Origin: Bacteroidota bacterium
Lineage (GTDB): Bacteria > Bacteroidota > Bacteroidia > Chitinophagales > Saprospiraceae
Length of the DNA stretch: 58,385 nt
Assembly: GCA_963169325.1 (NCBI GenBank)
Contig: CAUJEY010000147.1
Coordinates: forward strand, 1-58,385
Direction: 5' to 3'
The notes beneath the pieces were generated by a model. That model made no database searches. It saw only the letters and a program-made list of their open reading frames with translations, and was not told the DNA's origin. The position numbers and the translations under genes were made by a program. Shown one piece after another: positions 2,958 through 58,385 of this stretch (within the stretch, counting starts at the first letter, position 1; every line of letters starts with the position of its first letter).

Positions 2958-3052
2958 GGATTTGTTGATTTGTTGATTTGATCTGCGCACCTCAAATCAA
3001 CAAATCAACAAATCAACAAATCAACAAATCAACAAATCAACAAATCAACAAA
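2957..3052. repeat. heptad tandem repeat with hairpin before gluconokinase
   Basis: The spacer between permease and kinase consists of TTGTTGATTTG-type words, a GC-containing turn (ctgcgcac), and then about eight tandem copies of the complementary heptad AATCAAC. Left and right parts are inverted, so the transcript can form a hairpin. The array ends 1-2 nt before the GTG start of the kinase. A second locus with the same words is at 37066-37186. Confidence 0.85.
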
Positions 3053-25064: not shown

Positions 25065-25964
25065 TTGCGCTGTACAGAATGCCATTATCCCCTCCCGGTC
25101 GTCGGGGTGAAAAACCGTCCAATCCCCGTGTTTCCGAAACCAGGTAGCCTGCCGTTTGGCGTAATTCCGGCTGTGTTGTTTGATCTTTTCAATGGCTTCT
25201 GCCCGACTGATTTTTCCATCAAAAAAATCGAACCATTCTTCATATCCGACAGTTCGCAAGGCCGGTCGGTGGCGCCAGGGAATCAGCGTCCGGGCTTCTG
25301 CTTCCAGGCCCGCTTCCATCATCGCGTCTACGCGGGCTTCGATTCGCGCGTACAATTCCGCCCGTGGCAATTCCAGTAAAAGATAAACCGGGTGAAAAGG
25401 GCGAGTCGGCTTATGCTGTACCAGAAACGACGAATAAGGCCGGCCGCTTTCCAGGCAAACCTCCACCGCGCGGCGCAACCGGGCGGGGTTCTGACGGTCG
25501 ATTTTGGAAAAATAAACGGGATCCAGTTCGGCCAACTGTGCTTGCAACCACTCCAAGCCCTTAGTTTGTTCGCCCGCGGCAACCCGGTTTTTGGTTTCCA
25601 CAGAAATGGCGGGAAAAACATCCAGGCCGGCGCAAACGGCGTTCAGGTACAACCCCGATCCGCCGGTCAGAATAGCCGTTTTTCGGGTCTGGAAAATTTG
25701 TTCCAATACCTTTAGTGCATCCTGCTCAAAATTGCCGACACTGTAATCGTCGGCCACACCGAGCGAATCGATAAAATGATGGGGCGCCTGTTGCCGTTCA
25801 GCCAACGTCGGCTTGGCTGTTCCAATGCTCATTTCCCGGTAAAATTGCCGGCTGTCTGCCGACAATATTTCCGTTCCAAATGCCTGGGCCAGCCAAATCG
25901 AGGTGGCCGTTTTTCCGGTGGCCGTGGCGCCGCCTACGACGAAAAGGGTGTTGGTGGTTGTCAT
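25029..25964 (-). CDS. miaA: tRNA dimethylallyltransferase
   Basis: A 311-residue enzyme that adds a dimethylallyl group to A37 of tRNAs reading codons that begin with U. The P-loop GGATATGKT is at residues 11-19, followed by the DSRQFYREMSIGTAKP loop that contacts A37 and substrate, HHFIDSL, and GGSGLYLNAVCAGLD. The C-terminal ARTLIPWRHRPALRTVGYEEW and NYAKRQATWFR complete the family pattern. Length is normal. It reads against its neighbours and its 3' end overlaps the PAP2 coding sequence, so the two convergent transcripts are complementary at their ends. Confidence 0.97.
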   Translation of the reverse strand: MTTTNTLFVVGGATATGKTATSIWLAQAFGTEILSADSRQFYREMSIGTAKPTLAERQQAPHHFIDSLGVADDYSVGNFEQDALKVLEQIFQTRKTAILTGGSGLYLNAVCAGLDVFPAISVETKNRVAAGEQTKGLEWLQAQLAELDPVYFSKIDRQNPARLRRAVEVCLESGRPYSSFLVQHKPTRPFHPVYLLLELPRAELYARIEARVDAMMEAGLEAEARTLIPWRHRPALRTVGYEEWFDFFDGKISRAEAIEKIKQHSRNYAKRQATWFRKHGDWTVFHPDDREGIMAFCTAQLSRNPAQDATI

Positions 25965-26046
25965 TGAACGTCATTATCGTCATTCGTCATTACCGTCATT
26001 TTGCGTCATTTGTCATTGAACGTCATTATCGTCATTCAACTGGACC
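25961..26046. repeat. GTCATT word repeat region
   Basis: The short gap upstream of miaA is made mostly of GTCATT words. A 24-nt unit (25961-25984) recurs exactly at 26023-26046, with further GTCATT copies between. It overlaps the first codons of miaA (minus strand). A related stretch with the same words is at 52198-52232. No terminal inverted repeats or spacer pattern of a CRISPR are present. Confidence 0.7.
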
Positions 26047-35910: not shown

Positions 35911-37062
35911 ATGACAACGATACAAATTTTGGGAATGGGCGATGCTAAAATGTTCGCACTAAAAAATAACCTGACGCAAGCACTGGCCGAATTCCCGCTT
36001 CAGGCTAAGATTGAGGATATTTCAGAGTATAACAGAATTCATGCCAGCGGTGTGAAGGAACCTCCTGCCTTGATTTTAGATGGTGAAGTCGTATCGGAAG
36101 GCATCGTGCCAAGCGTGGAAGATATTAAACGAATGCTCCGCAACCGGAATTTGCTTCGCAGCAAATTATACCGGTTGCGGCGCATTTTAGTCCCCGTCGA
36201 CCTCAGCCCGGCTTCCGAAAATGCGTTGGTGTATGCCTGCCAGATGGCCCACCTGTTCGATGCCAACATTGAAGTGGTTTATGCAATGGACAGCCTGTTC
36301 GAAGGAGCTTCGCCGTCTCCGTCGGGTTTCTTGTCGGGCTATCGCAAAACCATGCAGAATGAAGTGGATGCTTTTGTGCGTAAAGCTACGAAAGGCAGTA
36401 ACGTCAAGTTTTCCGGTTCTCCTGCCAGCGCTTCCGAGACCGGCAGCGAGCCGGGTTCGCAACCGCCCTGGCTGCAAACCAATATCGTATTCGGCTTTCC
36501 GGAAGAGGTATTGTTCGATTTGTCGCAAAAAGCCGATTTGATTGTCATGGGCACCACCGGACGAGGCGATCTCACCCGTAAAATTTTCGGGTCGGTAAGT
36601 ATTTCACTGTCCAAAAGCGCCGTATGCCCGGTATTATTGGTGCCGCCGCATACCACGTACACCGGGTTTCAGAACATTTTGTATGCCAGTAATTTCGATT
36701 CGCTGGACCCCTTGACGGTCAAACAAACCGTGGCTTTCGCGCGTCGCTTTAAAGGGCAATTGCATTTTGTGCATGTCGGCCAACCCGGCGAAAAAGGCGT
36801 CGATCTGGAGAAAAAACTGTTTGAAATCAACTACGTATATGCCGACTCGGAGATGCCCTTTATTTTTAGCAAAGTGGTGGGTGAGAATATCGTGGAAAGC
36901 CTGCACGAATACGCTTTTGAACACCGCATCGACTTGTTCGTTTTTGTGACCCACCATAGGTCCTTCTGGGATGATCTCCTGCACCACAGTATCTCCAAAG
37001 ATATGTTGCTGCACACCAACACGCCTGTGCTGGTGATACATGCAGAGGCGGATGTGGGGTGA
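35911..37062 (+). CDS. fusion of cysteine-less thioredoxin-like domain with two universal stress protein domains
   Basis: A 383-residue cytoplasmic protein; ATG 35911 is preferred to a TTG 30 nt upstream. Residues 3-76 match the small redox-active-disulfide thioredoxin family (IQILGxGCxKCxxL...PALxIDGxVVxxGxVPSxEEIKxxL), but the two cysteines are replaced: the segment reads ILGMGDAKMFAL. The cis-proline region is kept (PPALILDGEVV). Residues 89-246 form a first Usp domain with an intact ATP loop, G214-2x-G217-9x-G227-S228. Residues 253-378 form a second Usp-like domain without that motif (FVFVTHHRSFWDDLLHH). The gene follows the CBS gene. Nucleotide binding in the first Usp is likely; redox activity of the N-terminal domain is unlikely. 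Confidence 0.85.
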   Translation: MTTIQILGMGDAKMFALKNNLTQALAEFPLQAKIEDISEYNRIHASGVKEPPALILDGEVVSEGIVPSVEDIKRMLRNRNLLRSKLYRLRRILVPVDLSPASENALVYACQMAHLFDANIEVVYAMDSLFEGASPSPSGFLSGYRKTMQNEVDAFVRKATKGSNVKFSGSPASASETGSEPGSQPPWLQTNIVFGFPEEVLFDLSQKADLIVMGTTGRGDLTRKIFGSVSISLSKSAVCPVLLVPPHTTYTGFQNILYASNFDSLDPLTVKQTVAFARRFKGQLHFVHVGQPGEKGVDLEKKLFEINYVYADSEMPFIFSKVVGENIVESLHEYAFEHRIDLFVFVTHHRSFWDDLLHHSISKDMLLHTNTPVLVIHAEADVG

Positions 37063-37065
37063 ATT

Positions 37066-37186
37066 GTTGATTTGTTGATGCGTTGATTTGTTGATGTGTT
37101 GATTTGAGGCGCGTTGCTCAAATCAACGCATCAACGCATAAACAAATCAACAAATCAACACATAAAAAATCAACAAATAATTTTTA
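37066..37186. repeat. heptad TTGATTTG hairpin repeat (second locus)
   Basis: The left arm consists of GTTGATTTGTTGATGCGTTG-like words, the turn is GGCGCGTTG, and the right arm is made of CAAATCAACGCATCAACGC and AAATCAACAAATCAAC words. The arms are complementary over roughly 40 bp with small interruptions. Words and layout match the element at 2957-3052. It lies between the Usp gene and the zinc-ribbon gene. Confidence 0.85.
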
Positions 37187-46299: not shown

Positions 46300-49200
46300 A
46301 TGCAAGGACTACTACTTCCTTTGGTCTTGTTTTTTTCGTTTTGGCTCACCGAAACCCGGGGCCAGCAGCTTCCCACGGCCACCGCCGCCGAAATCTGCGA
46401 TAACGGCATCGACGACGACAATGACGGCTATGTCGATTGTTACGACACCGACTGCCACTGCTTCAGCGGCACGGATTGTTCGGTGACGGAACTGCCTTCC
46501 GATTTCCGGGCGCGGTTAGCCTGGCAATCCGCGCAAAACGGGCCCTCCATCACGGCGGTGCCGGTGGTAGCCAACATGAATCCGCACCAGGACAGTATGC
46601 CCGAAATCATCGTGGCCGCCGCAGCCGCCAACGGCTCCAGCTTAGCCAACCGCATCCTGTTTTTTCGGGGCGACGGCTCCAATCTCGCCAATCCCCTGGT
46701 ACTGACCATTCCCAGCGGCTTCGATCCCTACCCGGTGCCGGGCCCTACCGTGGGCGATATCAACAACGACGGTATCCCGGAACTCATCATGTCGTGCAAC
46801 GACCGCCGCATCCGCGTGTTCCGGAATTACACCGAAACGCCCGGCGCGCCCATGACGCTCTGGGTCACCTCTTCCGGCCAACTGGACTACACCGACCAAA
46901 AACCCTACTTCGCCGATTTCGACGGCGACGGTATCCCGGAAATTTATGCCGGCAGCGACGTTTTTGAGTTTAATCTTACCAATCCCGCCAACCCGACCCT
47001 GAACAAGGTCATCAACGGCCCGGGCTACATCGGTCAGGCCATGTACAGCGTGTATCAGGAGGGTTCATGTAGTCCCACGGCGGTCGATCTGCTTTCGGTG
47101 GCCGACTGCAACGGCGATCCGGACTGCGCCGGACTCGAACTTGTGGCGGGCCCGGCCATCTATTCCATCGACCTCGACCCCAACGACGGCGACGGCTACC
47201 AGATCAAAATCAAACGCGACCTCAACCTGATGGCGCCCGGAAACGCCTTCGGCGACGGCTACACCGCCGTGGCAGACGTGGACCTGGACGGCGTGCTCGA
47301 TGTAGTGGTGAGCGCCCGCCGCAACAATACCCAGACGGGCGTATATGTGTGGAACAAAAACGGTTTTTTGCGCTTTTTCCCTTACCCGGGCGGCAATTCC
47401 CGCAGCGGCAGTTTAGCCTGTATCGCCAACCTGTATGACGACCGGACGAATGGATATGCGCAGGATTTTCCGGAAATATTAGTCTGCAACGCCTACAACC
47501 TCAATTGTTTCAACCTGCAGGCTGCGCTGACCACACCGGCCACGCCGTATTGGTGGAGTTTGGTGACCGAGGATTATTCCGGATTTACCGGCTCTTCCGT
47601 GTACGACTTCAACGGCGACGGCCTTTTTGAGATCGTGTACCGCGATGAAGATAATTTCCGCATTCTCTACGGCGGTGCGGCGCCTTTTCCGCCCGGTGTG
47701 GATGCAGAGCGCAACTGGTTTAAAATCCCCTGCGGCTCCATTACCTCCGACGAATATCCCATAGTGGCCGATGTGGACAACGACGGCGAAACGGAAATCG
47801 CGGTGACCGGATACACTTTTTCCGGCTACAACAACCCGTCGTCGGATTACCGGGGGCGACTGCGTGTTTTTGAATCGGATGCCGAACCCTGGGTGCCCTG
47901 CCGCAATGTGTGGAACCAGTACAACTACTTCGTCGTCAACGTAAACGACGACCTGAGCATTCCGGCGCAGCAACAGTTGCATCACCTTGAATTGCCCGCC
48001 GCCGGCTCCGGCAACCGGCCCCTGAACCGCTATTTATCGCAACGCCCGCTGTTGGATGAAAATTTTCAGCCTTTTTTGCCGGTACCCGACGCGCTGGCCT
48101 CCGTGACAGAAATCGTGTGCGCCGATGATAAATTGTACGTTCAACTACAGATATGCAACGACGGCAGCCACCCACTGAAGAACGGCACGCCGGTCGCTTT
48201 TTATACCTCGGACCCCACCACGACCGGCGCGCCGTTGTTGGGCAATGTACAGTTTACCGATGCGAAAGTGGAGCCGGGGGAATGCCGGCCATTTCTGTTT
48301 CTGCTGCCGGCACTTCCGGGGAAAGTGTACGGGGTGGTGAGCGACGACGGCACCAAAGCACGGCCGTTCAATCTGGCCCTCGATTTTCCGGCAACCACCC
48401 AAATCGAATGCAACTACCCGAACAATATTTTTCAATTTGAATTTGAGCCTGCCGTCGAACCCTTCGATCTCGGGCCCGATTATATATCCTGCAACGACAC
48501 CGTGATCGTGCTCCGGGCCGGCGCCGGCCACCTGGGCTACCAATGGCAGGACGGCAGTACCGACAGCGTGCTGGTGGCACAGAAGCCGGGCTTGTATTGG
48601 GTGGAAGTGTCCGACTATTGTCTGGCGCCCCGTATAGATTCCGTTCGTATTGAAAAATATACGTCGCTGCAAATTACGCTCGATACGATCAACGGCGATT
48701 GTTTGGGAAATCCGGCGCAGGCTACCGTTACCGCCGGCAGCCCGTATTTGCCCCTGACGTACCTGTGGTCCGAAGGGAGTGAAAGCCCGATCATCGCGGG
48801 CGTGCCCGACGGCGTGTACACTGTTTCGGTGACCGATGCGAAGGGCTGCCGCTCCGTCGATTCCACCTGGGTGGAGGCCGGCGGACTGTTGCTGGTGGAG
48901 CCGGCCGTGACGGGGATTCCCTGTGCCGGTCAAACGGGCCTGATTAACCTGCTTCTCGTAACCGGGAAGGCGCCTTTAACATTCCAGTGGTCTACCGGCG
49001 CCGAAGGCAGCAATTTACAGGATGTGCCGGCCGGTGAATATTCCGTCGTGGTATCGGATGCCGACGGTTGTTCGCAAACCTTACAAATTTCAATGCCGGA
49101 GCCGACGGCCTTACAGAGCAGCGGCTTGATTGCGGAAGCGGCCTGTCCGGGCGAATCCAACGGGGCCGTCTCGTTTGCCGGCGCAACGCAGGGCACGCCG

Positions 49201-52188
49201 CCGTACAGTTTGTTGTGGTCTACGAGCAGCGATTTGCCCGGTATTTCAGGCGTTTTGCCGGGTAGTTATACCCTGACGGTCAGCGACGCCAACGGCTGCA
49301 CCCTCGTTGAAACGGCTGTGGTACCGGAGTTTGAACCGCCGTCTGTAACCGGTACGGCATCGAACGTGACCTGTTTTGGCGCAAATGACGGCACCTTGTC
49401 CGTCACCTTGTCGGGCGGTACGCCGGGGTTCGGCTACTTGTGGTCGAACGGCGGAACCGGGCCGGATATTCAGCACCTGCCCCCCGGAGCGTATTCGCTT
49501 GCGCTGACGTATGCTGATGGCAAATGTGCGCAACAAGTTGATTTTCAAATTTCAGAACCCCCGCTGCTGTTCAGCGCGGGTATTGCCGCGGAGCCGGCTT
49601 GTCCCGGCGAAACGAATGGCAGCGCCGCGTTTTTGGGCGCAGCCCAGGGCACGCCGCCTTATACGTTGCACTGGAACGATGGCAGTGATCTGCCTTTGTT
49701 GGATGGGCTGGCGGCCGGCGCCTATTCGATGACGCTTACCGATGCCAACGGATGCAGCCTGATGGAAACGGTACAAATACCTGAATATGAAGCACCCGAG
49801 CCAGTGGATACGATTCGGGATGTTACCTGTTTCGGCGATGCCGACGGACGTATTGCCGTTGGGGTGTTGGGCGGCACCCCCGGGTTTGGGTATTTCTGGT
49901 CGAACAACGTCGACGCCCCGGCGATACAAAACCTTGGGCCGGGGATATACACCCTGAGTCTGACGTATGCCGACGGCAAATGTGCGCGGGTTTTTGATTA
50001 CCAAATCCAGGAGCCGCTGCCTTTGCTCAGTGCGGGCATCGTAACGGAACCGGCTTGTCCGGGCGAGGCCAACGGGAGCGTATTATTTTCCGGGGCTTTG
50101 CAGGGTACGCCGCCATACACGCTGTTGTGGGCTTCGGGCAGCGATTCGGCCGGTCTTTCCGGTTTGCCATCGGGCCAATATCAACTCACAATAACGGACA
50201 CTAACGGCTGCACCGTGTCGGATACCGCCGAAGTACCGGTCTTTGAAACGCCGGTTATCCAGGCAGAAACTTCCGATGTTCCCTGTTTCGGCGAGGCCAA
50301 CGGCGTTATTTCCGTTTCCCTGACAGGTGATTCGGCGGGTTTCGGTTATTTATGGTCGAACAATGCCACGTCGCCGGAAATACAAAATCTGTCTCCGGGA
50401 CATTACCCTTTAACCTTGACGTATGCCGACGGGAAATGCCGGGTGTTTGCCGATTTTGTTATCACAGAACCCACGGCCCTGCTGCTGCTCGATTCCCAGA
50501 TAACGCCGATTCGCTGTTTTGGCGACAAAACCGGCGCTATAGATATTACGCCGGGCGGTGGCACCGCGCCGTATCAATTCGATTGGTCGGATGGCCGAAA
50601 AACGGAGGATATTGGAGCGCTGACCGCCGGCGATTATGCGCTGACGCTGACGGATGCGCATGGATGCGTAATGCAAGCGCCTTTTTATGTTGCTGAGCCG
50701 GAAAAACTGGACATTCAGGCCGGTTTACTTGCAGACACCTGCCAGTCGGCCAATGGCGCCCTGACGGTGCAGGCTGCCGGAGGGGTAAGTCCGTACCAGT
50801 TTTTGTGGTCAACTGGCGCTTCCGTTCCGGGGATTTCCGGTTTGCCGGCCGGCAGTTACGGCCTGACGCTGACGGATGCCAATGATTGCCAGTTAGCAAT
50901 ACCTTTCGAGGTGCCGGCCTGGGGTGAAATACCGTTGGTGACGCCGTTTACCGATACGATTACTTGTGCGCAGCCGGGTGTGTGGATCGGGGTAACGGCC
51001 GATCAGAATGACCTGAACTATTTCTGGTCGGGTCCGGGCGGTGGGTTGCCCGGTCAGCCGTCGAATACGGTATTTGTTGCCGGTATTTACCAGGTACAGG
51101 TGGTCAATCCTTACGGTTGCACGGCGTCTGCGCAGCTGGAGGTGTTGGAAAACCGGGTGTTCCCTGTTGCGGATGCGGGTGCGGAATACCTGATTGTGCC
51201 TTGCGGCGAAACATCGGCAGCGCTGGATGCGGGCGCCTCGTCTGCGGGCAGCTTGTTTTTAAACAAATGGATTTTGATCAAAAACGGGGTCGCGGTATTT
51301 GATACGACGGCTTTGAAATTAGCGGCTACGCAACCGGGGTTATATGTTCACCGTGTGGTCAATCTGGAGAATGGTTGCGCCGCACAGGATTCTGTTTTGG
51401 TGGCCTGGGCAGCGCCCCTGGCAGCAGCAGTATCTGTGGATTCTGTAACTTGTTTTGGCGCGAATGATGGAATTATTCGTTTGGAACTTTTATCCGGCGG
51501 CACGCCGCCTGTTTATTATTCAATTGATAATCAAAATTTTACAGCCAATAATACGTATTACGAATTGCCCCCCGGCAGTTACCCGGTCAGTGTGCGGGAC
51601 AATTATGGATGTGTTTGGGAGTCAATAGTTTGGCTACGGGAGCCGGATTCGCTTGCAGTCGATCTGATTGCCGGCGATACGGTTGTTCAGATAGGGGCGT
51701 ATGTCGAGTTGGAGGCATTGCCTTTTCCGCCGGGTGTCGTGTTACAAACGATCATATGGCAACCGGGCGGTTTTGATTTTATTCCCAACGCGCTAACACA
51801 AAATATACGCCCTACCGACAGCACCGTATTTGCTGTAACGATTGTGGATGCGCATGGCTGCGTGGCTACCGACCGGTTGGCGGTGGCGGTGAATAATTTT
51901 CAAATTTATGTGCCTAATGTCATTCACCCTGGCACGACCGGCAACGGATGGTTTACTATTTTTGCCGGCGAAGGCGTTCGGGAAATTTTATTGATGCGGA
52001 TTTATGACCGGTGGGGAAATTTTGTTTTTGAAAACCGGCATTTTCAGCCCAATGTGCTGACGGATGGTTGGGACGGTACCTTCAGGGGCGGAGAAATGAA
52101 TCCAGGCGTATTTGTCTGGTATGCTGAAATTGAATTGCGGGACGGGCAGCGGCGGCTTTTAAAGGGAGACGTGACCGTTTTGCGGTGA
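46300..52188 (+). CDS. giant T9SS surface protein: VCBS propeller plus SprB repeats
   Basis: A 1962-residue exported protein; ATG 46300 gives a signal peptide (MQGLLLPLVLFFSFWLTETRG), whereas the open frame upstream to 46222 does not. Order: a MopE-like metal-binding motif (CDNGIDDDNDGYVDCYDTDC, near 33-52); FG-GAP/VCBS units to about 560 (DINNDGIPEL, DFDGDGIPEIY, DVDNDGETEIAV); a CARDB/PKD-like stretch to about 780; ten SprB-type modules of about 75 residues (about 787-1540), six of which form three A+B pairs of exactly 456 nt; a PKD-like part; one more SprB module (near 1715); and a T9SS type B sorting domain (FQIYVPNVIHP, MRIYDRWGNFVFEN, GEMNPGVFVWYAEIEL). SprB is the known gliding adhesin of Flavobacterium; this may be an adhesin. 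Confidence 0.93.
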   Translation: MQGLLLPLVLFFSFWLTETRGQQLPTATAAEICDNGIDDDNDGYVDCYDTDCHCFSGTDCSVTELPSDFRARLAWQSAQNGPSITAVPVVANMNPHQDSMPEIIVAAAAANGSSLANRILFFRGDGSNLANPLVLTIPSGFDPYPVPGPTVGDINNDGIPELIMSCNDRRIRVFRNYTETPGAPMTLWVTSSGQLDYTDQKPYFADFDGDGIPEIYAGSDVFEFNLTNPANPTLNKVINGPGYIGQAMYSVYQEGSCSPTAVDLLSVADCNGDPDCAGLELVAGPAIYSIDLDPNDGDGYQIKIKRDLNLMAPGNAFGDGYTAVADVDLDGVLDVVVSARRNNTQTGVYVWNKNGFLRFFPYPGGNSRSGSLACIANLYDDRTNGYAQDFPEILVCNAYNLNCFNLQAALTTPATPYWWSLVTEDYSGFTGSSVYDFNGDGLFEIVYRDEDNFRILYGGAAPFPPGVDAERNWFKIPCGSITSDEYPIVADVDNDGETEIAVTGYTFSGYNNPSSDYRGRLRVFESDAEPWVPCRNVWNQYNYFVVNVNDDLSIPAQQQLHHLELPAAGSGNRPLNRYLSQRPLLDENFQPFLPVPDALASVTEIVCADDKLYVQLQICNDGSHPLKNGTPVAFYTSDPTTTGAPLLGNVQFTDAKVEPGECRPFLFLLPALPGKVYGVVSDDGTKARPFNLALDFPATTQIECNYPNNIFQFEFEPAVEPFDLGPDYISCNDTVIVLRAGAGHLGYQWQDGSTDSVLVAQKPGLYWVEVSDYCLAPRIDSVRIEKYTSLQITLDTINGDCLGNPAQATVTAGSPYLPLTYLWSEGSESPIIAGVPDGVYTVSVTDAKGCRSVDSTWVEAGGLLLVEPAVTGIPCAGQTGLINLLLVTGKAPLTFQWSTGAEGSNLQDVPAGEYSVVVSDADGCSQTLQISMPEPTALQSSGLIAEAACPGESNGAVSFAGATQGTPPYSLLWSTSSDLPGISGVLPGSYTLTVSDANGCTLVETAVVPEFEPPSVTGTASNVTCFGANDGTLSVTLSGGTPGFGYLWSNGGTGPDIQHLPPGAYSLALTYADGKCAQQVDFQISEPPLLFSAGIAAEPACPGETNGSAAFLGAAQGTPPYTLHWNDGSDLPLLDGLAAGAYSMTLTDANGCSLMETVQIPEYEAPEPVDTIRDVTCFGDADGRIAVGVLGGTPGFGYFWSNNVDAPAIQNLGPGIYTLSLTYADGKCARVFDYQIQEPLPLLSAGIVTEPACPGEANGSVLFSGALQGTPPYTLLWASGSDSAGLSGLPSGQYQLTITDTNGCTVSDTAEVPVFETPVIQAETSDVPCFGEANGVISVSLTGDSAGFGYLWSNNATSPEIQNLSPGHYPLTLTYADGKCRVFADFVITEPTALLLLDSQITPIRCFGDKTGAIDITPGGGTAPYQFDWSDGRKTEDIGALTAGDYALTLTDAHGCVMQAPFYVAEPEKLDIQAGLLADTCQSANGALTVQAAGGVSPYQFLWSTGASVPGISGLPAGSYGLTLTDANDCQLAIPFEVPAWGEIPLVTPFTDTITCAQPGVWIGVTADQNDLNYFWSGPGGGLPGQPSNTVFVAGIYQVQVVNPYGCTASAQLEVLENRVFPVADAGAEYLIVPCGETSAALDAGASSAGSLFLNKWILIKNGVAVFDTTALKLAATQPGLYVHRVVNLENGCAAQDSVLVAWAAPLAAAVSVDSVTCFGANDGIIRLELLSGGTPPVYYSIDNQNFTANNTYYELPPGSYPVSVRDNYGCVWESIVWLREPDSLAVDLIAGDTVVQIGAYVELEALPFPPGVVLQTIIWQPGGFDFIPNALTQNIRPTDSTVFAVTIVDAHGCVATDRLAVAVNNFQIYVPNVIHPGTTGNGWFTIFAGEGVREILLMRIYDRWGNFVFENRHFQPNVLTDGWDGTFRGGEMNPGVFVWYAEIELRDGQRRLLKGDVTVLR
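49110..50440 (+). repeat. three two-module super-repeats (period 456 nt) in the first giant gene
   Basis: The words encoding TYADGKC lie at 49507, 49963 and 50419, exactly 456 nt apart. Each unit contains an A module (ACPGExNGxxxFxGAxQGTPPY) and a B module (CFGxxDG...GFGYLWSN...LTYADGKC). Flanking SprB modules do not follow the paired pattern. Confidence 0.88.
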
Positions 52189-52418
52189 ATAGGGGCATTT
52201 CGTCATTAGGTCATTTCGTCATTGGGTCATTAGTAGGGTAGTTTTGTTATTTTTATTTGGTCAAATGCCTTTTGTGACGTTCCCCGACAAAAAAAATACA
52301 AATTTTTACCCTGAAAAAAAAATTAAAATCAGTTTTTGGGCCCGCATACATTTGACATCTGTAACGTGTGTTTCCGGGACCGAATATTTAATCATAAAGT
52401 CTAAACATTACTTATGAC
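52189..52418. other. intergenic gap: GTCATT words and candidate promoter
   Basis: Between the two giant genes, 52198-52232 holds GTCATT words (CGTCATT, GGTCATT) like those at 25961-26046. TACATTTG at 52347-52354 matches TAnnTTTG exactly and lies 65 nt before the ATG of the second giant gene. The remainder is AT-rich with two long A runs and no reading frame. The second gene probably has its own promoter. Confidence 0.5.
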
Positions 52419-55400
52419 ATGAAGGGTTACACCTTACTACTTGCCTGTGTATTTATAACCTTAAGCCAAGCCATTTTCGCCCAATGCCCGCCACCCGGTT
52501 TTCCGCAGCCGGGCAATACCTGTGTGCAAGCGCCTATTCTTTGCGAAGATCTGGACGGCTATTGTGCTACGATTAACAACAGTAACAACCAGCAAACATT
52601 TCCCGGTTGCCCCCCTGGTCAATATGCCTTGCATAATGACGAGTGGTTTGCGTTTTTTGCGGGCTCTACTTCCATCACTATTCAAGTGACGCCGAGTAAC
52701 TGTACGCAGGGTGGCAATAGCCAGGGACTGCAAGGGGGTATTTATTCGGGCTGTGGTCCGCCCTGGACGGTTATGGATGTTCAGTGCCAGTGTTCGGAAA
52801 CACCTTTTACACTTTCTGCCACTAATTTTGTGATCGGCCAGGTGTACTGGTTCGTACTTGACGGATGCGGTGGGGATGTGTGCGATTATGCCATTGATGT
52901 GCTGTCAGGTTCCACCGTCGGCGTTCCTCCTTCAAACCCTGGTCCATTAACTGGCCCGATTGATGTATGCCAGGGTACCAGTTCCACATACAGTATACCG
53001 CCTGCTTATGCTGCAACCAACTATACCTATACACTTGTGCCGCCACTCGGGACGGTGACGGATAACGGGACAAGCGCCAATATTAACTGGGGCGCCAACT
53101 CCAGCGGAACGGCAGAGCTTTGTGTGACTGCTTCAAACTTGTGCTATAATAACCCGACGCCGGCCTGTATTACCATAGAGGTAAATCCCCGGCCGACGGC
53201 CACACTTTCGGGGAGCGGGGTGTTGTGTGCAGGCTCGTCTACCCCCGTCAACCTGACCGTTACCTTTACCGGTGAGGCTCCCTGGACGTTTACACCACGG
53301 CTTAACGGGGCCGCTCAGACGCCGATTACCACCAGCGAAAACCCGTACACCTACGCGGTAACTCAACCCGGCACTTATACGCTTCAGGGCGTAACCGGGA
53401 GTTCTGCCAACTGCGTCGGTACGGTTTCCGGCTCCGTCAACGTCACGCAAACCACCATCAACTTGAGCGCGCAGACCACAAATGCAATTTGCGGACAGAG
53501 CAACGGCGCAGTCAATCTGAGTGTCAGCAACGGTACTGCGCCATATATGTTTATATGGTCGGGTGGACAAACGACGGAGGACTTGAGTAACGTTCTTGCC
53601 GGCACCTATACCGTCACGGTAACGGATGCGAACGGCTGTACTGGCACGCTCGCCGCCACAGTGAACGATACTCAGATCACATTAAACATAACCGGCGTCG
53701 TAGTGGCCAATACAACTTGTACCGGTGGGAACGGCAGCATAGACGTCAGTGTAAGCCCAACGGGCACGTATGACTATGTTTGGTCAAATGCAGCGACAAC
53801 GCAAGATTTGAGCAACCTTACCCCGGGCACCTACACGGTAACGGTAACCTCAGGCGTAAACTGTACCAATACGGCTGAATTTACCGTGCCCGACAATCCT
53901 AATACGCCAAACCTCAGCTCCACGGTGGTACAAACAACCTGCGATTTGAGCAACGGCAGCATCAATCTGACCGTTTCAGGCGGTATTTCGCCATACACAT
54001 TCCAATGGTCGCCGGGCGGCGAAGTCACCGAAGATTTGAACAACATTCCTGCCGGGAGTTATGATGTCACGGTGACCGGGGCAAACGGCTGCACAAGCAC
54101 GGCCAGCATAAATGTACCGAACAACAATCCGCCAATCAACGTAAACGGTTCCGTAGTTGCCAATACCACCTGCAACGGCGGCAATGGTTCGATTACGATC
54201 AATGTCCAACCACCAGGCAGTTACACTTATATCTGGTCCAACGGTTCTACTAATCAAAACCAAACGGGTTTGCCGCCCGGGACCTATGATGTCACGGTAA
54301 CCGGTAGCGGCAGTTGCTCGCAAACCGCCTCTTTTACCGTACCCGACAACCCCAATACGCCCAACCTCAACTCTACGGTGGTGCAAACGACCTGCGATTT
54401 GAGCAACGGCAGTATCAATCTGACCGTTTCAGGCGGTGTTTCTCCGTACACCTTTCAATGGTCGCCGGGCGGGCAAGTCACGGAGGACCTGAACAACATA
54501 CCCGCCGGTAGTTATGATGTCACGGTGACCGGGGCAAACGGTTGTACGAGCACGGCGAGCATTAATGTGCCGAACAACAACCCCACCATCAATGTCAATG
54601 GTACCGTGATAGCGAATACTACCTGCAACGGCGGCAACGGCAGTATTACGATAAATGTGACGCCGGCCGGCAGTTATACCTTCGTTTGGTCGAACGGCGC
54701 TATGACGCAGAATATCGGCAACCTGACTCCCGGTACTTATGAGGTGACGGTGAACGGCGGGGGCAGCTGTACGCAAACGGCCTCGTTTACCGTTCCGGAT
54801 AACCCGAATACGCCAAACATCAATTATACCGCCGGCCAAACTTCCTGCGATTTGAGCAATGGATCGATTAACCTTGCCGTGTCGGGTGGTGTGCCGCCGT
54901 ATACCTTTTTGTGGTCGAACGGTGCTGTCACACAAAATTTAGCTAATATACCCTCGGATAACTACGCCGTCACCGTTACCGGAGCCAACGGCTGTACCAA
55001 TACGGCGGATATTTTTGTGCCGAACAATAACCCGCAGATCAACGTCAATGCGAACATCATCGCCAATACCACCTGTAATGGCGGTAACGGTAGTATTACC
55101 ATAAACGTTACCCCGCCGGGATCGTACACGTATACCTGGTCGAACGGCTCGACAAGTCAAAACCAAACCAACCTGCCGGCGGGCACTTATGAAGTGACCG
55201 TAAACGGCGGCGGCACCTGCACCCAAACGGAGTCCTTTACCGTACCCGATCAGCCCAATGAGCCCACGGTATCGTTTACGTTTGTCGCCGCAACCTGCGG
55301 CCTGAGCAACGGCAGTATTGATCTGGCCGTTTTCGGCGGCGTGCCTCCGTACACGTATCAATGGTCCAGCGGGCAAACGACTCAGGATATCAACAACCTG

Positions 55401-58385
55401 CCGGAAGACCTGTATTTGGTCACTGTCACGGGCGCCAACGGCTGTTCCGTGGTGGACGGGCTGGTGCTCCCGAACAACGATGTTCCAATCACCATCAATG
55501 GCAATGTGACGCCGAAAACATCCTGTGCCGTCAATAACGGCGCTATCATGCTGATACTGACGCCCAATAATCTAACGATTAACTGGTCGAACGGCAGTAC
55601 GGCGCTCAATCTGAACAACCTCGCCGCGGGCGACTATACCGTGACCGTGAGCGCCGGCGGCAATTGCACGCAGGAGGCCACCTTTACCGTTCCGGATGAA
55701 ACGGAAATTCCTTTCTTAGATATTGCCATTACCCCGGCTACCTGCGGGTTTTCCAATGGAGCGCTCGACCTGGAAGTGTACACCGGCCAGGCGCCCTATA
55801 CCTACAACTGGTCGAACACCCGAAAAACGCAGGACATCAGCAATCTGGCCTCCGGGGATTATGCCGTTACGGTGACCACGGCGCTGGGCTGCACCAACGT
55901 GGCGTATGCCTACGTGCCGGCGGAAGACATTCCAATCCAAATTTTTGGTACTGTATCGGATAATACTTCCTGTGCATCGCCGAACGGCTTTATCGATCTC
56001 GATATTCAGCCTTCAAATTTGAACTATACTTATTCCTGGTCCAATGGCAGAACGACTAAAGACATCAGCAATCTTACGGCCGGCACCTATACTGTCACGG
56101 TAACCTATGGAAACTGCGTGGCGTCGGCCAGCTTCGATCTGTATGATAACAATGCGCCACCGAATGTGTCTATCGTCGGTATTGCGGCAATATGTGGCCA
56201 AACCAACGGCGGAGCGGACGCCTCCGTAAGCGGCGGATCGGCTCCGTACACATACAAATGGTCGAATAATGCCCTGACGCCGGATTTGGCCAATATTGCT
56301 CCCGGAACCTACACCCTGACCGTTACCGACTTTTTCGGCTGCACGGCCTCAGCCGTCGTCGCTGTTTCCAACAACAACATAGCCCTGAATATCAGTGGAA
56401 CGCCGGCGGCAAATACCTCTTGTACCACCCCGAACGGCGTGATCGATATTACCGTTGCGCCGACCGGCACCTATACCTATGCCTGGTCTAATGCCGCCGT
56501 AACGCAAGACCTGGCTGCTTTGCCGGCGGGTACGTATACCGTGACGGTCAGTGCGGGAAACACCTGTACGGCTTCGGCTACCTTTGCCGTGCTAAACAAC
56601 ACCTCCGACCCCGTTATTACGCCTGCGGTTACTGCCGCTATTTGCGGGCAAAACAACGGCGGCATCGACCTGACAATCAGTGGCGCGCCGGGGCCGTTCG
56701 TTTTTGCGTGGTCCAATAGCGCCGTCACGGAAGACCTGGCGAGTATCCTTTCCGGAAACTATACGGTGACGGTTACTGCGGCAAACGGATGTACCGCCGA
56801 CACCACGCTGAACGTGGCAAACAACGCCTCTACTTTTAGCCTCACCGGCTTGGCCACATCATTAACCAATTGTGTGGCGGATAACGGCGCCATCAATCTG
56901 ACGGTTACTCCGGCAGGGCCGTACACCTACGTATGGTCCAACAGCGCTCTGACCGAGGATATTTCCAACCTGCCTGCGGGCACCTACACGGTTTCTGTGA
57001 CGGAAACCGGTACCTGCACCGCCTCCGCTTCCTTTATTGTAAACGACGACAGAACGTACCCGGCGGCTACCCAAACGGTTGCCGCTGAAATTTGCGGTTT
57101 GTCCAACGGCAATATCGACCTGAGTGTTACCGGTGGAGTGACGCCGTACAGTTACACATGGTCGGGCGGGCAAATGAGCGAAGACCTGACCGGCATACCC
57201 ACCGGCAACTATGCCGTTACCGTCACCGGCGCAAACGGCTGTACGACCACTGCTTCCGCTAATGTTCCGGCCAACGATATCAGTTTCGCCATTTCCGGAA
57301 CGCCTGCGGCAAACACCTCCTGTATCGCCAACAACGGCGGGATAAACCTCGACATTTCACCCGCCGGAACTTATACCTTCAACTGGTCAAATGCTGCTTC
57401 TTCGGAAGATGTTTCCGGACTGGCGCCTGGTAATTTCACCGTAACGGTGAGCGCCGGCGGCACCTGCACCAACACGGCGTCTTTCGCCGTGGCCAACAAC
57501 GCGTTTCCGCCAACTATTTCAGAAAGTGTCACGCCCGCTTTTTGTGGACAAAGCAGCGGCGGCGTTAATCTCACGGTCAGTGCGGGACAAACTCCTTATA
57601 CGTTCTCGTGGTCGAATGCTGCCATGACGGAGGATTTGACCAATCTGCCCGCGGGTATGTACACCGTAACCGTGACGGGCGCCAACGGCTGCACTGCCGT
57701 GAAAATGTACGATGTTCAAGATGATGCCGTAACGCCGACCGTTTCGGGTATTGCCATTTCCAATACCTCTTGTGTTTCCAGCAATGGGGCTGTTAATTTG
57801 AATGTATCCCCGGTGCTCAACTATACCTTCAATTGGTCAAACAGCGAGACTACGCAAAATTTACAAAACGTAGCGGCAGGTGTTTACACGGTGACCGTAA
57901 ACGGCGGCGGGAGCTGTATAAACACAGCCACTTTTACGGTGGACAACAATTCGCCGGCGCCCACGACTACAGCCGGTATCACGCCGGCTTTTTGTGGACA
58001 AACCAGCGGTGTGATCGACCTGAACGTGACTTCAGGAACGGCGCCTTATACCTATAATTGGTCGACAGGCGTCAAGACGGAAGACTTGGCCGGGGTGAAT
58101 TCCGGAACCTTTACTGTTACTGTTTCTGGCGCCAATGGTTGCGTTTCCGTCTTCTCCTACTCCGTTCCGGATAGCATCGTTATACCGGACATCGCCGGTA
58201 CGACTACCCCGAACACCCTTTGCGTGGGTAAAAACGGCGCTATTACAATTGATGCCACGCCGCCGATCGGCTATACCTATAGCTGGTCTAATATGCAGAC
58301 CACCCAGAATTTGGTGGATGTGCTACCTGGAACCTACACCGTTACGGTAAACGGCGGTGGCGCCTGCACCGCCACGGCTTCTTTT
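52419..58385 (+). CDS. giant SprB-like repeat surface protein, 3' end beyond the window
   Basis: One frame is open from ATG 52419 to the last base (1989 codons), so the protein is at least 1989 residues and incomplete. It starts with a signal peptide (MKGYTLLLACVFITLSQAIF|AQ), then a cysteine-rich beta domain (about 30-165; NDEWFAFFAGSTSITIQV, VYWFVLDGCGGDVCDYAIDV) and a PKD-like part (170-340). From about residue 341 to the edge it consists only of 22 SprB-like modules in strict alternation: A (CxxSNGxIxLxVxGG...PYTYxWSxG...TVTGANGC) and B (CxxxNGxIxIxVxPxGxYTYxWSN...TVNGGGxCTxTASFTVPD). Each module has two cysteines. The early pairs repeat at exactly 453 nt. A T9SS sorting domain is expected downstream but cannot be seen. 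Confidence 0.93.
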   Translation, partial: MKGYTLLLACVFITLSQAIFAQCPPPGFPQPGNTCVQAPILCEDLDGYCATINNSNNQQTFPGCPPGQYALHNDEWFAFFAGSTSITIQVTPSNCTQGGNSQGLQGGIYSGCGPPWTVMDVQCQCSETPFTLSATNFVIGQVYWFVLDGCGGDVCDYAIDVLSGSTVGVPPSNPGPLTGPIDVCQGTSSTYSIPPAYAATNYTYTLVPPLGTVTDNGTSANINWGANSSGTAELCVTASNLCYNNPTPACITIEVNPRPTATLSGSGVLCAGSSTPVNLTVTFTGEAPWTFTPRLNGAAQTPITTSENPYTYAVTQPGTYTLQGVTGSSANCVGTVSGSVNVTQTTINLSAQTTNAICGQSNGAVNLSVSNGTAPYMFIWSGGQTTEDLSNVLAGTYTVTVTDANGCTGTLAATVNDTQITLNITGVVVANTTCTGGNGSIDVSVSPTGTYDYVWSNAATTQDLSNLTPGTYTVTVTSGVNCTNTAEFTVPDNPNTPNLSSTVVQTTCDLSNGSINLTVSGGISPYTFQWSPGGEVTEDLNNIPAGSYDVTVTGANGCTSTASINVPNNNPPINVNGSVVANTTCNGGNGSITINVQPPGSYTYIWSNGSTNQNQTGLPPGTYDVTVTGSGSCSQTASFTVPDNPNTPNLNSTVVQTTCDLSNGSINLTVSGGVSPYTFQWSPGGQVTEDLNNIPAGSYDVTVTGANGCTSTASINVPNNNPTINVNGTVIANTTCNGGNGSITINVTPAGSYTFVWSNGAMTQNIGNLTPGTYEVTVNGGGSCTQTASFTVPDNPNTPNINYTAGQTSCDLSNGSINLAVSGGVPPYTFLWSNGAVTQNLANIPSDNYAVTVTGANGCTNTADIFVPNNNPQINVNANIIANTTCNGGNGSITINVTPPGSYTYTWSNGSTSQNQTNLPAGTYEVTVNGGGTCTQTESFTVPDQPNEPTVSFTFVAATCGLSNGSIDLAVFGGVPPYTYQWSSGQTTQDINNLPEDLYLVTVTGANGCSVVDGLVLPNNDVPITINGNVTPKTSCAVNNGAIMLILTPNNLTINWSNGSTALNLNNLAAGDYTVTVSAGGNCTQEATFTVPDETEIPFLDIAITPATCGFSNGALDLEVYTGQAPYTYNWSNTRKTQDISNLASGDYAVTVTTALGCTNVAYAYVPAEDIPIQIFGTVSDNTSCASPNGFIDLDIQPSNLNYTYSWSNGRTTKDISNLTAGTYTVTVTYGNCVASASFDLYDNNAPPNVSIVGIAAICGQTNGGADASVSGGSAPYTYKWSNNALTPDLANIAPGTYTLTVTDFFGCTASAVVAVSNNNIALNISGTPAANTSCTTPNGVIDITVAPTGTYTYAWSNAAVTQDLAALPAGTYTVTVSAGNTCTASATFAVLNNTSDPVITPAVTAAICGQNNGGIDLTISGAPGPFVFAWSNSAVTEDLASILSGNYTVTVTAANGCTADTTLNVANNASTFSLTGLATSLTNCVADNGAINLTVTPAGPYTYVWSNSALTEDISNLPAGTYTVSVTETGTCTASASFIVNDDRTYPAATQTVAAEICGLSNGNIDLSVTGGVTPYSYTWSGGQMSEDLTGIPTGNYAVTVTGANGCTTTASANVPANDISFAISGTPAANTSCIANNGGINLDISPAGTYTFNWSNAASSEDVSGLAPGNFTVTVSAGGTCTNTASFAVANNAFPPTISESVTPAFCGQSSGGVNLTVSAGQTPYTFSWSNAAMTEDLTNLPAGMYTVTVTGANGCTAVKMYDVQDDAVTPTVSGIAISNTSCVSSNGAVNLNVSPVLNYTFNWSNSETTQNLQNVAAGVYTVTVNGGGSCINTATFTVDNNSPAPTTTAGITPAFCGQTSGVIDLNVTSGTAPYTYNWSTGVKTEDLAGVNSGTFTVTVSGANGCVSVFSYSVPDSIVIPDIAGTTTPNTLCVGKNGAITIDATPPIGYTYSWSNMQTTQNLVDVLPGTYTVTVNGGGACTATASF
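53440..58385 (+). repeat. array of about 11 two-module super-repeats (period 453 nt)
   Basis: Equivalent points at 53911, 54364 and 54817 are exactly 453 nt apart, and A-type cores recur near 53450, 53935, 54390, 54845, 55300, 55740, 56190, 56640, 57095, 57540 and 57995. Pairs 2-4 are very similar at base level, with long identical runs and mostly silent changes; later pairs keep the protein pattern but differ more in bases. The array is wholly inside the coding sequence and continues past the window. Confidence 0.9.

Follow-up and report, generated by a model that had tools for sequence, protein, structure and literature searches.

Strict alternation of two SprB module types in a giant Saprospiraceae surface protein, and a proposed stapled rod with two kinds of joint

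The window analysed here is the entire contig CAUJEY010000147.1 (C147; 58385 bases) of the Bacteroidota bacterium assembly GCA_963169325.1, a Saprospiraceae genome of 8.07 Mb in 349 contigs. Two neighbouring giant genes, both on the + strand, occupy its end: gene 1 at 46300–52188 and gene 2, cut by the contig end, at 52419–58385, the layout that an earlier note on this DNA had described. Both encode tandem SprB modules that alternate, wholly or in part, between an A and a B type, and the locus raises the question of whether an A-B pair is a structural unit of two domains, kept in both genes, as the earlier note had supposed. In gene 2 the two types alternate strictly; most of the core is common to them, and the AB, BC and FG loops differ. 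Judging from the sequences, it is reasonably likely that the gene 2 product forms a stapled SprB rod with two alternating joints, and that the gene 1 pattern is unrelated and goes back to the duplication of a module pair.

Alternation and loop divergence in gene 2

The gene 2 array (53448–58385) consists of 22 SprB modules that make up 11 strict A-B pairs, with both cysteines in every module. Pair 1 (53448–53897) has 150 residues, pairs 2 (53898–54350) and 3 (54351–54803) have 151, pair 4 (54804–55253) has 150 and pair 5 (55254–55700) has 149. Pairs 6 (55701–56150), 7 (56151–56600), 8 (56601–57050), 9 (57051–57500) and 10 (57501–57950) again have 150 residues each, and pair 11 (57951–58385) is truncated by the contig end, beyond which a 93.5% identical copy on contig C148 extends further. 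The pair of 453 nt, or 151 residues, that had been claimed for gene 2 is thus found in two of the ten complete pairs, the rest having 150 (seven) or 149 (one). The motifs noted for the modules are present: gene 1 has ACPGE and CFG..DG, and the opening pairs of gene 2 have C.LSNG and C..GNG. All 22 modules of gene 2 alternate, with a mean identity of 55% at lag 2 versus 39% at lag 1 (permutation p 0.0005, the lowest value obtainable with 2000 shuffles). Modules 3–8 of gene 1 resemble their own kind more closely as well (52–57%, versus 24–33% across kinds), as the distinction of two types in the earlier note implied.

Ten relatives of gene 2 (L101, L161–L167, L169 and L170) were collected by searching the family and scanning named genomes, and strict alternation was found in 10/10. 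The alternating stretches of these relatives and gene 2 hold 94 A and 93 B modules, 187 in total, with zero phase slips; L162 is a near-copy of L163, and L166 of L170, and the array of L169 is without its start. Where the end of the array is visible, there are 11 pairs in L161, L167 and gene 2 (with C148) and 10 pairs in L162, L163 and L166, and the closed 10- or 11-pair arrays are then followed by two ordinary modules. L164 carries additional whole pairs. The same-numbered module of gene 2 is the best match for 18 of 24 modules in L167, 10 of 11 in L165, 13 of 24 in L161 and 10–14 of 22 in L162, L163 and L166; the low value for L164 (3/16) arises because its extra pairs shift the numbering.

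In the gene 2 family, the columns that separate A from B are 11–13, 16, 17, 28, 29, 31, 32 and 61–63, plus 4 and 70. Mapped on the predicted strands, they account for 11 of the 16 columns of the AB, BC and FG loops versus 3 of the 56 others. The A/B divergence of gene 2 is 0.72 in these loops versus 0.26 in the rest, a ratio of 2.79, and the ten relatives give ratios of 1.90–3.03. As a control, 1540 comparisons among 56 other arrays gave ratios that averaged 0.90 and peaked at 1.88, so that none reaches 2.79. Divergence in the CE and EF loops is 0.09 in the family set and 0.23 in gene 2 alone. A model of the A-B-A-B stretch that begins with pair 2 (53898–54803) shows strands only, in a chain of immunoglobulin (Ig)-like domains (mean predicted local distance difference test score, pLDDT, 94.1), and the alternating stretch of gene 1 is likewise predicted as an all-strand, Ig-like chain (mean pLDDT 88.8); the predicted template modelling scores of the A-B-A-B models are 0.64 and 0.56, and the per-residue confidence does not bear on the joints. 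Where Ig or fibronectin type III (FN3) domains stand in tandem, each turns its AB loop towards its successor and its BC and FG loops towards its predecessor. Because of this arrangement, the A/B differences lie at the expected joint: on the predicted fold, they fall at the presumed contact sites of adjacent domains, and the evidence points to end-to-end contacts between gene 2 domains.

Several observations weigh against this reading. With three modules per kind, gene 2 gives ratios of 1.70, 2.20 and 2.07, the first of which lies inside the control range, and the relatives L164 (1.93) and L169 (1.90) are barely above the control maximum. The three loops were picked as a set once the divergence profile of gene 2 had been viewed, for which the use of the same set in the controls is a partial remedy, and the loop contacts were assigned from what is generally known of Ig and FN3 domains. 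In addition, the arrays of L102 and L103, which are close to gene 2 in their N-terminal part, are non-alternating. A tree built from N-terminal parts groups the alternating proteins together, and these may or may not have a single origin; among distant N-terminal homologues, small but significant lag differences occur in L111 (1.9), L114 (1.8) and L115 (2.1 and 3.1).

The pair could also be a mere unit of tandem duplication, an ancestral A-B copied head to tail, in which case the alternation would be structurally meaningless. Such a process is enough for gene 1 and for its paralogues L021 and L018, in which the loop/rest ratios are 0.90, 1.03 and 0.83 (that of L050, a protein of the OmpA family below, is also within 0.83–1.03) and the differences run throughout the module; moreover, unit size varies, since super-repeats of three and four modules exist (L011, L023, L168). 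For gene 2 we regard it as unlikely, though the most serious of the alternatives, because the silent sites are heavily diverged and yet like modules remain alike, because the core columns of A and B are largely common whereas the joint loops differ, and because the phase is maintained in all ten relatives. Between successive like modules of gene 2, 34–72% of the shared residues are encoded by a different codon, by which measure the like modules appear to be old, having diverged long ago at silent sites. Recent duplication or gene conversion, considered as a source of the gene 2 alternation, is not favoured given these heavily changed silent sites.

A further alternative is that A and B alternate for side-by-side contacts, with stalks pairing or bundling along a filament. 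The nearest solved relative, the Aureispira protein GhpA, is a giant Ig-repeat surface protein, and a two-domain repeat would yield a regular lateral spacing; the A/B-specific positions, however, fall in loops at the domain ends and off the strands that form the sides, except for columns 4, 11 and 70, which makes this arrangement improbable.

Proposed cysteine pairing between neighbouring modules

The rod proposed for gene 2 would be held together by cysteines. SprB modules have two: C1 follows the first strand, and C2 precedes the last. A cysteine-blind profile, which ignores both of these columns, shows one cysteine lost in 135 modules and both in 1. Absence of C1 coincides with absence of C2 in the following module at 17 junctions, versus 0.76 expected (17 with both absent, 22 with C1 alone absent, 5 with C2 alone absent and 1089 with neither; odds ratio (OR) 168, p 5.9e-23), and the OR is 180 once L050, L028 and gene 1 are removed. 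Within one module, the same profile gives 1, 76, 48 and 1275 for the corresponding cells (OR 0.3). These counts of joint loss leave out the near-copies L163, L174 and L175. The 5 cases in which C1 is present and the next C2 absent comprise those of gene 1, an alignment slip caused by B modules with one extra residue before C2, and others in L011 and L147. In the first profile, C2 is absent from 22 of 132 run-starting modules versus 21 of 1477 others, and C1 from 18 of 124 run-ending modules versus 37 of 1431 others. The pattern suggests that C1 of one module is disulfide-bonded to C2 of the next, as an inter-domain staple. Pairing in the other direction, C2(i) with C1(i+1), shows a lower correlation and, on the modelled fold, would need to span two strands in line. 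As side observations on the cysteines, L171 lacks C1 at every fifth module (6, 11, 16), and in L028 (contig C123 of the same genome, G000), a reprolysin-like metallopeptidase, the SprB array carries C1-only and C2-bearing modules in turn.

A second family presents the cysteines differently. L050, encoded on contig C109 of the same genome, ends in an OmpA domain and has 14 modules, which bear C1 and C2 alternately. A search listed 41 homologues at E <=9.6e-43 (own protein excluded), of which 38 were fetched (L226–L263; all but G118:C75, G137:C84 and G038:C355); 36 of the 38 have runs of at least four modules and 2 are without. Strict alternation of C1-only and C2-only modules fits 579 of 580 readable cysteine positions, in a count made without the cysteine-blind profile, and 336 of 337 modules if unreadable positions are taken as fitting, or 246 of 247 with both positions readable. 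In the 29 arrays closed at both ends the number of modules is always even, from 4 to 22. The OmpA C-terminus is found in 6/6 examined members and a propeller match in five. These counts suggest that the propeller-SprB-OmpA proteins are chains of stapled pairs; their pairing is the clearest two-domain unit found, and it lies outside the window.

Other features of the cysteine data sit less well with a staple between neighbours. At 22 junctions C1 is absent and the following C2 kept, which leaves a lone cysteine. Other odd distances also correlate, if less strongly, C1(i) with C2(i-1) (OR 10.7), C2(i+3) (OR 80) and C2(i-3) (OR 23), and continue to do so without L050, L028 and gene 1 (OR 6.1, 40 and 9.5). 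The p-values overstate independence, because the counted proteins are related. That C1 and C2 of one module instead form an ordinary intra-domain disulfide, the neighbour correlation being a by-product of array ends and alternation, would agree with the presence of both cysteines in most modules, with the inflation of neighbour correlations by relatedness and with the correlation at three-module distances, but it is the least probable explanation considered, since just 1 module lost both cysteines against 135 that lost one, and since the OmpA-family modules hold one of the two at all but one of the readable positions.

Taking the staple between neighbours as the preferred reading, the gene 2 product would be a stalk protein with a rod-shaped shaft built of Ig-like SprB domains. 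C1 of domain i, in the loop after the first strand at the distal end, would be linked by a disulfide to C2 of domain i+1, in the loop before the last strand at the proximal end. Because every module of the alternating stretches of gene 1 and gene 2 keeps both cysteines, every joint there would be stapled. Because A and B have most of the core in common and diverge in the AB, BC and FG loops, the rod would have joints of two kinds in turn, A-to-B and B-to-A, and would repeat mechanically every two domains. With slightly less assurance than we give to the gene 2 rod itself, a general cysteine grammar can be proposed, in which C1 bonds to C2 of the next domain and a stiff block opens with a C2-less domain and closes with a C1-less one; two Saprospiraceae families would then use two-domain units differently, as stapled rods with two joint types (gene 2) and as stapled pairs with free joints (propeller-SprB-OmpA). 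If this is true, stiff and hinged joints could be read from sequence in SprB-type stalks, and stalk stiffness and hinge sites would be predictable for very many uncharacterised surface proteins. The gene 2 family would be a conserved example of two alternating joint types, and the cysteine rule makes domain-domain stapling directly testable.

Gene 1, the module period and the remainder of the locus

Gene 1 is complete (ATG at 46300; 1962 aa). Its N-terminal part holds FG-GAP repeats, ten SprB modules follow, and the C-terminus is CHU_C-like. Ten is the number of modules as delimited here; the profile detects an eleventh. Modules 1–2 (48652–49101) are outside the alternation, which is confined to modules 3–8 (49102–50472), and modules 9–10 (50473–50925) resemble neither A nor B; over the whole run, alternation has a p of 0.073. 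The 456-nt, 152-residue pair that had been described for this gene therefore holds for two pairs, the third having 153 residues, and only three pairs exist among the ten modules. The A/B differences are spread over the whole module. Homologues of the gene 1 N-terminal part, whole or in pieces, are widespread, with some match in 139 of 150 genomes. At 17 fetched loci (16 from other genomes and 1 from the same genome) there are 7 runs of at least four modules, 6 of them in L207, L208, L210, L219 and L221 and 1 in a neighbouring frame (L209). None of these 7 runs alternates (p 0.29–1.0); the remaining loci are without a run of four modules and hence uninformative on alternation. The paralogues L018 and L021 from the same genome alternate with module types of their own, L018 weakly (p 0.068).

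The A and B modules of gene 1 show 33, 25, 28 and 25% identity to those of gene 2 in the four possible comparisons, in agreement with the earlier statement that the module sequences differ clearly between the genes. A common dimeric design of both genes was considered and rejected: the gene 1 types are no closer to the gene 2 types than to others, and no gene 1 homologue was found upstream of the gene 2 relatives in the 1.5–9.9 kb examined at 9 of the 10 loci (all but L169). Given differences spread over the module and homologues elsewhere that do not alternate, the duplication of one module pair suffices, and from the sequences the gene 1 pattern is best explained in this way, as unrelated to gene 2. 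The proposal of a two-module structural unit thus stands for gene 2, with no slip in ten relatives, length changes by whole pairs and A/B differences at expected contacts, and falls for gene 1, with differences throughout the module and five homologues elsewhere without alternation.

The near-equal length of the pairs, which had been offered as evidence for a shared unit, carries no information, because the mean module spacing is 74–80 residues in all 53 runs of at least eight SprB modules; 151 or 152 residues are merely twice a common module length, the chance coincidence that the earlier note had itself envisaged. These runs come from 82 loci, 40 regions hand-picked from the best SprB rows and 42 from the scan for relatives, and modules 60–92 residues apart were joined. 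The difference between lags exceeds 6 in 9 of the 53 runs, all nine being gene 2 relatives, and ranges from -2.7 to 5.2 in the other 44, with p <0.05 in four (L127, L128 twice and L168). Among runs of at least five modules (n=23), alternation reaches p <0.01 in gene 2, L050 and L021. Alternation is therefore rare among the SprB arrays surveyed. Of 119 genomes sampled from the class, 105 contain SprB-like repeats, and the genome studied here (G000) itself carries a very large number of SprB modules (150 scored matches among 508 candidates, on about fifty contigs). Longer units were also seen: L168 has a 51-module SprB array with a four-module super-repeat (69% identity at lag 4 versus 60–61% at lags 1–3), and super-repeats of three and four modules are present in L011 and L023, respectively.

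Gene 2 is open at the contig end and encodes at least 1989 aa. Ahead of the array are an N-terminal region with no family match, for which a signal peptide was judged by eye (52419–52925), a PKD-like domain (PF19408; 52926–53153) and an Ig-like domain recognised by a POM152-like model (53235–53429). The last 693 bases of gene 2 (57693–58385) correspond end to end, at 93.5% identity, to the first 693 of C148 (L038:1–693), and the remaining genome matches to this sequence are short or weak. Because of this overlap, gene 2 probably continues on C148, to about 2851 aa in total, and was probably split in the assembly by strain variation; complete relatives measure 2726 (L162), 2749 (L166) and 2858 (L167) residues between stops. 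C148 contributes two more SprB modules, further domains and a type B sorting domain for type IX secretion (CHU_C 47.6 bits, cut-off 27; TIGR04131 35.8 bits, cut-off 35). No CHU_C or TIGR04131 domain was found in the part of gene 2 within the window. The complete relative L162 scores 40.8 bits for CHU_C, above the Pfam cut-off of 27, and 31.6 bits for TIGR04131, below the NCBI cut-off of 35. From these domains, the gene 2 product is probably secreted by the type IX system. In gene 1, the CHU_C-like type IX sorting domain (51910–52149) scores 26.8 bits against the cut-off of 27, with no TIGR04131 match.

Short tandem repeats occur at four places in the window. Two are GTCATT-rich (25960–26037 and 52196–52231), the second lying between gene 1 and gene 2, and two are arrays of 8-base units of the CAAATCAA and TGATTTGT types (2993–3052 and 37060–37180).

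Relation to known surface proteins

The best solved matches, by profile and by fold, are fragments of the grappling hook protein GhpA, with titin and fibronectin close behind; a search with the gene 2 stretch as a single sequence found no solved structure at a significant level (best E 0.084). The Ig-like repeats of GhpA, from Aureispira sp. CCB-QB1 (9FLP, 9FLW and others), are related to the modules of the window genes. In searches covering gene 2, no GhpA match was found for its N-terminal 343 residues or its C-terminal continuation. Because the structure of GhpA, a similar giant surface protein of Ig repeats, has already been determined, the suggestion of an undescribed surface structure gains no clear support. 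As for the staples and the alternation, none of the titles and abstract openings listed in literature searches describes alternating SprB modules or inter-domain staples, though such a description may be in print.

The SprB repeat PF13573, as in SprB of Flavobacterium johnsoniae, is matched far above the cut-off of 28 bits by both window genes (182.6 bits in 6 stretches for gene 1; 303.5 bits in 14 stretches for gene 2), and both have the tandem modules of about 75 residues that characterise the family. Most SprB arrays in our survey, which covered arrays other than F. johnsoniae SprB, are non-alternating, unlike gene 2. As far as the contigs reach, no PorP/SprF homologue, the family of the gliding-adhesin partner sprF, is present on C147 or C148; 16 are found elsewhere in the genome. 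A further parallel is the giant Ig adhesin of Mobiluncus mulieris, which, according to an excerpt of its description (PMC10619420), has repeated Ig-like domains, covalent cross-links and a disulfide within one domain. By that account it resembles the window proteins in being giant, built of repeated Ig-like domains and covalently strengthened, and it differs in that its disulfide is intra-domain, whereas the one proposed for gene 2 would join neighbouring domains.
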